Source: Drechmeria coniospora | Taxonomy: Eukaryota > Ascomycota > Sordariomycetes > Hypocreales > Ophiocordycipitaceae | Length of the DNA: 64,000 bases | Direction: 5' to 3' | Assembly: GCF_001625195.1 (NCBI RefSeq) | Contig: NC_054389.1 | Coordinates: 4,088,520-4,152,519 of the forward strand | Shown: positions 53,615 through 55,628 of the stretch, in pieces | How the letters are laid out: each line of letters starts with the position of its first letter | Position numbering within the stretch: the stretch's first letter is position 1 | Notes under the pieces: model-generated | Told to the model about the DNA's origin: nothing | Seen by the model: only the letters and a program-made list of their open reading frames with translations | Databases searched by the model: none | Position numbers and translations under genes: made by a program

Positions 53615-55628
53615 TTATTTCTTGGCAGCCTTGGCAGCGGACTTGGTGACCTTGGCGGCGGCACCAGTGGACTTCTCGACGGACTTGATGACACCGACAG
53701 CGACGGTTTGACGCATGTCACGGACGGCGAAACGACCCAGGGGAGGGTAGTCGGTGAAGGCCTCGACGCACATGGGCTTGGAGGGAACCATCTTGACGAT
53801 GGCAGAGTCACCAGACTTGATGAACTTGGGGGCAGCCTCAACAGCCTTACCGGTACGGCGGTCAATCTTCTCCTTGATCTCGGAGAACTTGCAGGCAATG
53901 TGGGCAGTGTGGCAGTCCAGAACGGGAGCGTAACCGGCACCGACCTGACCGGGGTGGTTGAGAACGATGACCTGAGCGTCGAAGGAAGCGGCACCCATGG
54001 GGGGGTCGTTCTTGGAGTCACCGGCAACGTTGCCACGGCGAATGTCCTTGACGGAGACGTTCTTCACGTTGAAACCAACGTTGTCGCCGGGAACACCCTC
54101 GGTGAGCTGCTCGTGGTGCATCTCAACGGACTTGACTTCGGTGGTGACGTTGGAAGGAGCGAAGGTAACGACCATACCGGGCTTGAGGATACCGGTCTCG
54201 ATACGGCCGACGGGAACTGTGCCGATACCGCCAATCTTGTAGACATCCTGGAGAGGAAGACGGAGAGGCTTGTCGGTGGGACGCTTGGGAGGCTCGATGG
54301 AGTCGATGGCCTCGAGGAGAGTCTTACCGGTGGACTTGCCAGCCTTGGTCTCCTTCTCCCAGCCCTTGTACCAGGGGCAGTTGGAGGAGGCGGCAAGCAT
54401 GTTGTCGCCGTGGAAACCGGAGATGGGAACGAAGGCGACGGTCTTGGGGTTGTATCCGACCTTCTTGATGAAGTTGGAGGTCTCCTTGATGATTTCCTGG
54501 AAACGGGCCTCGGACCACTTGGTGGTGTCCATCTTGTTGATAGCAACGATGAGCTGCTTGACACCAAGGGTGTAAGCGAGCAGAGCGTGCTCACGAGTCT
54601 GGCCATCCTTGGAGATACCAGCCTCGAACTCACCAGTGCCGGCAGCGATAATGAGGATAGCGCAATCGGCCTGGGAGGTACCCGTGATCATGTTCTTGAT
54701 GAAATCACGGTGGCCAGGAGCGTCTTGAAACGGCGTTAGTACGCAAGCCAGGGGACGAGGGGGGGATGGAAATGCATACCAATGACGGTGACATAGTACT
54801 TGGGAGTCTCGAACTTCCAGAGAGCAATGTCGATGGTGATACCACGCTCACGCTCGGCCTTGAGCTTGTCAAGAACCCAAGCATACTTGAAAGAACCCTT
54901 GCCAAGTTCGGCGGCTTCCTGTCATTGATAGTCAGCGATCGATGGCTCTTGCACGCGGGGAATGGCAGCTCAGGCAGCGGCGGGAGGTGCGACTAGGAAC
55001 GACCATGGCAGGGTTTGGAGCCCCACTTCATGTGCTGTGAACGGAAAAAATTTGTTTGGAAGCAAAAGGAGGGGTAATGTCAAGCCACGTTAGGCCACAG
55101 GCCGAGGCCAACGGACCAGGTGCAATGAATGTGCTGCAACAGAGATCAAAAGACCAAGCAGGGTGGGAAAATTACCTTCTCGAACTTCTCAATGGTACGC
55201 TTGTCGATACCACCGCACTGGTAGATCAGGTGACCGGTCTGTGGTCTCGGTCAGTACGAACGTGACACAGGCGGCAACCCCACGCCGGTGACGGCAAGCG
55301 GGGTAGCAGCACCGCAGGATGCGGGTTTTCAGGAAGATGACTCACAGTGGTCGACTTGCCGGAATCGACGTGGCTGGCGTTTTCGTCAGTACGACGTGCA
55401 CCGCAAATGACGGCATTGGAATCGTGTTACGCACCCCTGGAGAGCGAGTTAGCGGAATGTCTTGGGCGGCAGAAGCGTGGGTGAGGGGCGAACATACGAT
55501 AACGACGACGTTGATGTGAGTCTTATCCTCCTTACTGATGACTGGGTCAGCATGGGTGATCGATGGTATGGAGGACGACGGCGTGTGGGATGAGACGTGA
55601 TGCCTCCGGATATGACGACGTACCCCAT
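53615..55628 (-). CDS. TEF1: Translation elongation factor 1-alpha
   Basis: 460 aa, exactly the usual fungal length. It brings aminoacyl-tRNA to the ribosome as a GTP complex. Seven exons on the minus strand: 55628-55624, 55534-55498, 55436-55435, 55373-55346, 55238-55176, 54918-54780, 54723-53615. GTPase motifs: G1 GHVDSGKS, G3 DAPGHRD, G4 NKMD, G5 near SGFHGD; the C-terminus is KSAAKAAKK. The first exon holds only ATGGG. The third is a 2-nt microexon (GG) needed to make the Gly codon of G1: ATC + GG + CCAC reads Ile-Gly-His. Without it the reading frame is lost, and no other canonical junction restores it. A 257-nt intron after FEKFEK is the longest. Start context GTCAACATGGG is strong. Codon choice is heavily biased (GTC, ACC, AAG), as for a highly expressed gene. 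Confidence 0.97.
55435..55436 (-). other. TEF1: Predicted 2-nt microexon of TEF1
   Basis: The dinucleotide GG lies between an upstream 61-nt intron (55437-55497: donor GTATGT, branch GCTAAC, end TCCAG) and a downstream 61-nt intron (55374-55434: donor GTGCGT, branch ACTGAC, end GCCAG). It supplies the first two bases of the Gly codon in GHVDSGKS. Confidence 0.8.

Follow-up and report, generated by a model that had tools for sequence, protein, structure and literature searches.

The window analysed here is a stretch of 64,000 nt from contig NC_054389.1 of the fungus Drechmeria coniospora (positions 4,088,520 to 4,152,519 of the forward strand). On its minus strand it carries TEF1, the gene for eEF1A, an essential and highly expressed protein, with the ATG at window position 55628 and the stop codon at 53617-53615. 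The original prediction, made from the letters of the window, placed within this gene an internal exon of only two nucleotides, GG. The gene model that includes this exon has seven coding exons (5, 37, 2, 28, 63, 139 and 1109 nt) and six introns (89, 61, 61, 107, 257 and 56 nt). Its translation has the 460 amino acids foreseen and matches yeast eEF1A (1f60) from end to end over residues 1-460 (phmmer E 8.9e-270); it is a full-length eEF1A, G1 loop GHVDSGKS included. The parts of the model that concern us are as follows, in window coordinates.

55624..55628, minus strand: coding exon 1, ATGGG; intron 1 (89 nt) opens with GTACGT
55498..55534, minus strand: exon 2, 37 nt, ending in GTTATC (gene model)
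55437..55497, minus strand: intron 2, 61 nt, GTATGT...CTCCAG (gene model)
55448..55452, minus strand: putative branch-point motif CTAAC of intron 2, ending 11 nt before the intron end
55435..55436, minus strand: two-nucleotide exon GG, the sole conventional solution in the enumeration; 0 of 200,000 shuffles
55374..55434, minus strand: intron 3, 61 nt, GTGCGT...CGCCAG (gene model; GTGCGT donor weakly backed by the genome)
55385..55389, minus strand: putative branch-point motif CTGAC of intron 3, ending 11 nt before the intron end
55346..55373, minus strand: exon 4, 28 nt, starting with CCACGTC (gene model)
55176..55238, minus strand: exon 5, 63 nt (gene model)
54780..54918, minus strand: exon 6, 139 nt (gene model)
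53615..54723, minus strand: exon 7, 1109 nt with the stop TAA; one 100% place in the genome search

The proposed GG exon and its surroundings

The two-nucleotide exon would supply the first two letters of GGC, the glycine codon of the G1 loop GHVDSGKS, and the residue at stake in the splicing of TEF1 is the first glycine of the GxxxxGKS loop. All the coordinates and letters on which the original prediction relied are correct: exon 2 reads GTTATC to 55498, GTATGT begins at 55497, and CCACGTC begins at 55373. Between them lies the core CCAG-GG-GTGCGT, with CTCCAG running to 55437, GG at 55436-55435, GTGCGT from 55434 and CGCCAG to 55374, and both proposed branch points are in place (CTAAC, 55452-55448; CTGAC, 55389-55385), each ending 11 nt before the end of its intron. 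GG would be a very small internal exon, with complete signals on both sides (GTATGT..CTAAC..CAG / GG / GTGCGT..CTGAC..CAG). Excising the whole 124 nt as one intron produces a frameshift, as had been anticipated.

Over the stretch from the first letter of exon 2 to the last of exon 4 we enumerated all excisions no shorter than 20 nt, singly or as two consecutive introns, first pairing GT or GC donors with AG acceptors and afterwards including AT-AC introns. The exact protein came from just one two-intron model, the one with GG at 55436-55435 as its middle exon. No other two-intron model with GT/GC-AG or AT-AC ends restores the G1 loop, and no single intron of these types yields the exact protein; the assertion that no other GT-AG or GC-AG choice would serve holds over this range. 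Six single-intron models keep the frame, each with an insert of at least three residues in place of the glycine. A nested enumeration with GT/GC-AG ends returned two solutions, which differ only in the order in which the same two introns are removed, and when the ends were left unrestricted a single excision giving the exact protein was found only at 55496-55375, with TA...CA ends. Over the models enumerated, the GG exon is needed for both the frame and the conserved motif, and it has no conventional alternative.

The arrangement is also more than chance would be expected to produce. We shuffled the 124 nt between ATC and CCAC, preserving the interior dinucleotides and the outer splice sites. 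Among 200,000 shuffles, AG/GG/GT with both parts at least 45 nt long arose in 77, the same with a GTRNGT donor in one, and with branch motifs in both parts in none; because no shuffle had all the signals, we conclude that the GG layout exceeds chance. A looser test, which accepted an exon of 2, 5 or 8 nt of any letters with a GTRNGT donor and both branch motifs, was passed by 6 of 50,000 shuffles. Pairs of strong introns 0-60 nt apart were sought on both strands of 264 kb (the window and 20 regions of 10 kb). Fourteen were found, with the TEF1 pair alone at 7 nt or less; two at 8 nt are TAC repeats in locus L104, and the remainder are at least 13 nt apart. L104 holds a TAC-rich array. Measured from the last CTRAY motif to the intron end, the distance is 12 nt in one of the six TEF1 introns and 11 nt in the other five, with introns 2 and 3 among the five, a regularity that was not built into the model.

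The genome searched comprises 32.8 Mb in 28 contigs, of which the window is a part. The exon-7 protein matched one place at 100% and four more at 24-38% identity, and among the best candidates scored there was no second TEF1. The spliced letters GTTATCGGCCACGTCGATTC, with up to three mismatches allowed, occur at two places with three mismatches each, C1:1162441-1162460 and C3:5243552-5243571. The latter probably belongs to the gene of the 37%-identical relative, since it lies about 220 bp beyond the match at C3:5242342-5243331.

The interpretation as a two-nucleotide exon is supported because it is the sole conventional solution, has good signals on both sides, is accompanied by no second TEF1 among the candidates scored, and concerns a codon at which annotated proteins of two other genera also fail. 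As sequence the feature is real, and its reality as biology is very probable. We consider it highly likely that TEF1 has an obligatory internal exon of two nucleotides between two ordinary 61-nt U2-type introns, and that these would be removed one by one; the arrangement is probably shared with some relatives.

Two other observations concern the gene as a whole. Antisense to its last exon, an open frame of 412 amino acids runs on the plus strand (window 53501-54739) and is likely a by-product of strong codon bias. Upstream of TEF1 (window 56150-56400), short repeats resembling AAGTACTT, GTACAGTA and TAGTAG appear abundant by eye.

TEF1 proteins of related fungi

Three protein searches, drawing on the best 120 of 7998, 120 of 5600 and 120 of 301 hits, fetched 297 proteins, of which 296 hold the motif H[VI]D[SA]GKST; two of the three were aimed at finding inserts, and the counts are not a frequency. 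In 291 of these the residue before the motif is glycine, which leaves five exceptions: P0015 (Metarhizium rileyi), P0125 and P0126 (Trichoderma virens), P0128 (Trichoderma parareesei) and P0281. The last is a single Gly-to-Ser difference, and the other four, three Trichoderma records and one of M. rileyi, carry an insert exactly at the glycine. When fetched proteins of up to 620 residues with at least 380 aligned are ranked by closeness, the nearest among the matches listed are M. rileyi (442/460 identical), Trichoderma citrinoviride (366/381) and T. parareesei (385/407), followed by Fusarium, a ranking that would itself place the fungus, probably, in Hypocreales.

The annotated TEF1 of T. parareesei reads VVVI-VCTFRSIIGIIRQPDPKNHCANHLPSRGA-HVDSGK. 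This insert can start with GTATGT or GTGTGT (GTRTGT) as its first two codons and finish with CCAGGGGTGC and then the C of CCAC. Decoded in this way, the first intron would be 80 nt long and the annotator would have used a GT that lies four letters inside the real second intron. The identical wrong donor imposed on our window also yields SRGAHVD. The annotation error in T. parareesei is what a sequence of the form ...CCAG/GG/GTGC... yields, which suggests that the exon was missed there. In both T. virens records the end of the insert fits GGGTGC. Within the fetched set, the CCAGGGGTGC end is fitted by 3 of 134,968 tetrapeptides, that of T. parareesei included, and the T. virens end by 290 of 134,969 tripeptides, these records included. 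Read from these mis-annotated proteins, the GG exon is probably common to at least T. parareesei and T. virens, where annotation would have missed it, and it may perhaps be present in M. rileyi as well, whose insert VSPWKYPSLQV can begin with GTAAGT or GTGAGT.

The numbering of introns in Trichoderma offers a further comparison. In Trichoderma papers, the fourth and fifth tef1 introns precede the last long exon and the fourth is the large one. In the window, if GG counts as an exon, the large intron (257 nt) is number five and the last one (56 nt) number six. The published numbering would fit the pair being counted as one intron, which is only suggestive.

By eye, several annotated fungal TEF1 proteins in public databases (P0125, P0126, P0128, P0086, P0048 and P0028) show translated introns, shifted frames or missing blocks away from the glycine. 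Searches for DNA of relatives in other collections gave results of a different kind. Prokaryote contigs returned archaeal relatives and one 71% match among the best 80 of 584 loci. That match lies in DYPS01000131.1 (1-1800), labelled Desulfosporosinus, which starts with CCCCAA repeats like those of ciliate telomeres and looks by eye like eukaryotic contamination of a bacterial genome bin. Viral contigs returned two matches, one of 71% (L087) and one to the start of a spliced fungal TEF1 (L088). In the latter (IMG/VR IMGVR_UViG_3300030818_000095, 1300-3063), what appears by eye to be an RNA-virus-like polymerase is directly followed by the spliced 5' part of a fungal TEF1 mRNA (ATGGGTAAGGAGAAGTCTCAC...), and the contig is probably a metatranscriptome chimera.

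Alternative accounts of the glycine codon

A single non-canonical intron of 122 nt with TA...CA ends (55496-55375) would leave in the message one G from the apparent donor and one from the apparent acceptor and so give the same ATCGGCCAC. It is the sole single excision, whatever the ends, that produces the exact protein, and the outermost two letters of a GT-AG intron can in every case make good a missing GG. However, this account leaves unexplained the internal CAG/GG/GTGCGT with its two branch motifs, which no shuffle reproduced, as well as the branch spacing, which in both parts equals that of the other TEF1 introns, and the Trichoderma inserts that fit GGGTGC. We know of no established class of TA-CA spliceosomal introns, and we regard this explanation as very improbable. 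An assembly error, in which two bases were lost beside an exon edge and one ordinary intron of 124 nt was thereby disguised, has equally little to recommend it in our estimation. It is true that GG sits inside a run of four G (55437-55434). Yet the error would require two extra bases at the right spot and an accidental, perfect two-intron layout besides; altering the G run by one breaks the frame, and proteins recorded in databases for other species break at this codon too.

The two remaining accounts are, as we see it, extremely unlikely. A GC-AG intron of 116 nt (55489-55374) would keep the frame, like five other single-intron models with longer inserts, and give a TEF1 with VCS replacing the glycine. 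The residue so lost is the first glycine of GxxxxGKS, retained in nearly all the fetched relatives (291/296) and also in the three solved-structure alignments shown, and the donor, GCCCCT, is poor. The other account is a stwintron, in which one intron is nested within the splice signal of another. Stwintrons are reported to be numerous in Hypoxylaceae fungi, but no nested model with GT/GC-AG ends interrupts a donor, branch point or acceptor here, and both nested solutions are adjacent introns flanking GG. With no internal intron of these types inside a signal of an external one, the locus falls outside the stwintron class. Nor is it a zero-nucleotide recursive splice site, since the junction is AG/GG/GT and its two letters are required for the protein.

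Several observations weigh against a two-nucleotide exon shared with relatives. In a weak test of the GTGCGT donor, a strong 3' end lay at 45-75 nt for 7 of 135 genomic sites, compared with 0 and 2 at two control distances; the hexamer ranks 27th of 256, and the test is weak because the excess over all GT sites is itself small (812, compared with controls of 647 and 723). The evidence from Trichoderma and Metarhizium consists of annotated proteins and not DNA, and P0125, P0126 and P0128 have further faults downstream of the glycine. M. rileyi, the closest protein among the matches listed, breaks at the same codon, and its insert end ...SLQV fits neither GGGTGC nor the GC donor tried. Normal IGHVD is found in T. 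citrinoviride P0130, Beauveria bassiana P0133 and Fusarium P0014, P0086, P0129 and P0140, again as proteins alone, and these records either come from genes without the introns in question or were annotated correctly. Finally, the proposed check by cDNA is not fully decisive: any GT...AG intron both begins and ends with G, and the mature mRNA therefore cannot separate the GG exon from the TA-CA excision, which yields an identical ATCGGCCAC, and cDNA alone cannot exclude it.

Probable splicing of the intron pair and its significance

Under intron definition, the accepted view for short fungal introns, each intron is recognised as a unit. If introns 2 and 3 are recognised in this way, the length of the exon between them need not matter, because it is the introns that are recognised. 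Each would be recognisable on its own because its signals are complete. We hypothesize that their removal is most likely sequential: with just two letters between the 3' site of the first and the 5' site of the second, simultaneous processing would be unlikely. Removal of intron 2 first would leave ATCGG/GTGCGT...CAG/CCAC, and removal of intron 3 first would leave ATC/GTATGT...CAG/GGCCAC, in each case an ordinary intron. Either order would give ATC GGC CAC and restore the first glycine of the GTP-binding G1 loop. Transcripts from which GG was skipped, with 124 nt removed, would be frameshifted and could be expected to undergo nonsense-mediated decay.

Other proposals about the pair found no support. 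As for a recent duplication, introns 2 and 3 agree in only 28 of 64 columns when aligned end to end, several of them splice signals, and neither has another match in the genome search. As for an RNA structure holding both introns, the 189-nt stretch folds worse than its shuffles (z +2.19). We think it unlikely, though worth stating, that the exon is an old one, spread across much of Hypocreales (this lineage, Trichoderma, perhaps Metarhizium) and kept because enforced sequential splicing, with a frameshift if it is skipped, limits or tunes the output of eEF1A.

Fusarium belongs to the same order, Hypocreales, which bears on the nearest published case. A 1-nt exon in Fusarium CYP621A, published in February 2026 with SRA support, was described as the first for a fungal gene, and its authors argued from the frame, a conserved motif and the AG-G-GT context (PMC12940212). 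As in TEF1, two short adjoining introns meet there at a comparable core, the exon contributes to the glycine codon of a conserved motif, and a frame mismatch betrayed it, in that case during manual annotation. Unlike the TEF1 exon, that of CYP621A is 1 nt and not 2, belongs to a seldom expressed P450 of unknown function and is SRA-confirmed, where ours is predicted from the genome sequence (PMC12940212). In Arabidopsis, APC11 has a constitutive 1-nt exon, for which intron definition and recursive splicing were proposed (PMC4674806), and a survey of plants revealed that APC11 and VPS55 have conserved 1-nt exons, which are missing from reference annotations (PMC8831610). These too are unannotated, ultra-small exons between two introns, but they are from plants, 1 nt long and verified in transcripts, in contrast to the case described here (PMC4674806, PMC8831610). 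The microexon of Xlr2 in Trichoderma virens likewise occurs in a relative and encodes an unannotated region, although it is switch-like, alternatively included and located in a transcription factor gene (PMC11121469). Stepwise removal through a junction recalls recursive splicing and zero-nucleotide exons, whereas TEF1 would keep two letters in its mRNA and has short introns (PMC4674806). Stwintrons, similarly, are pairs of introns removed successively at one place, but in them one intron interrupts the signal of the other, while the signals in TEF1 are complete and separate (PMC9024468, PMC12403724, PMC8469720, PMC6616335).

The original prediction called exons of this size extremely rare, which is fair, but they are not unprecedented, 1-nt exons having been published for plants and for Fusarium CYP621A. 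We found no report of a TEF1 microexon in the open-licence literature, which mostly does not cover subscription journals. Ultra-small exons are already known; within that literature, as far as we searched, what is new is the size of this one, the gene that carries it and its apparent presence in more than one genus. The GG exon of TEF1 would join this class, and stands out within it because its gene is essential, is expressed at a very high level and was found in one copy.

If confirmed, this would be an exon of two nucleotides whose splicing goes right in almost all copies of one of the cell's most abundant mRNAs. Such a case would place a strong limit on models that require a minimum exon length, and would provide an easily expressed system in which to test intron definition and the order of splicing. 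It would also mean that database records of at least three species misannotate TEF1, a gene on which the naming of fungi widely relies; its most used barcode fragment starts downstream of the GG exon. An exon of this size is easily missed by gene-finding software, and if the one in TEF1 is confirmed, frame breaks at conserved motifs may hide further exons of the same kind.
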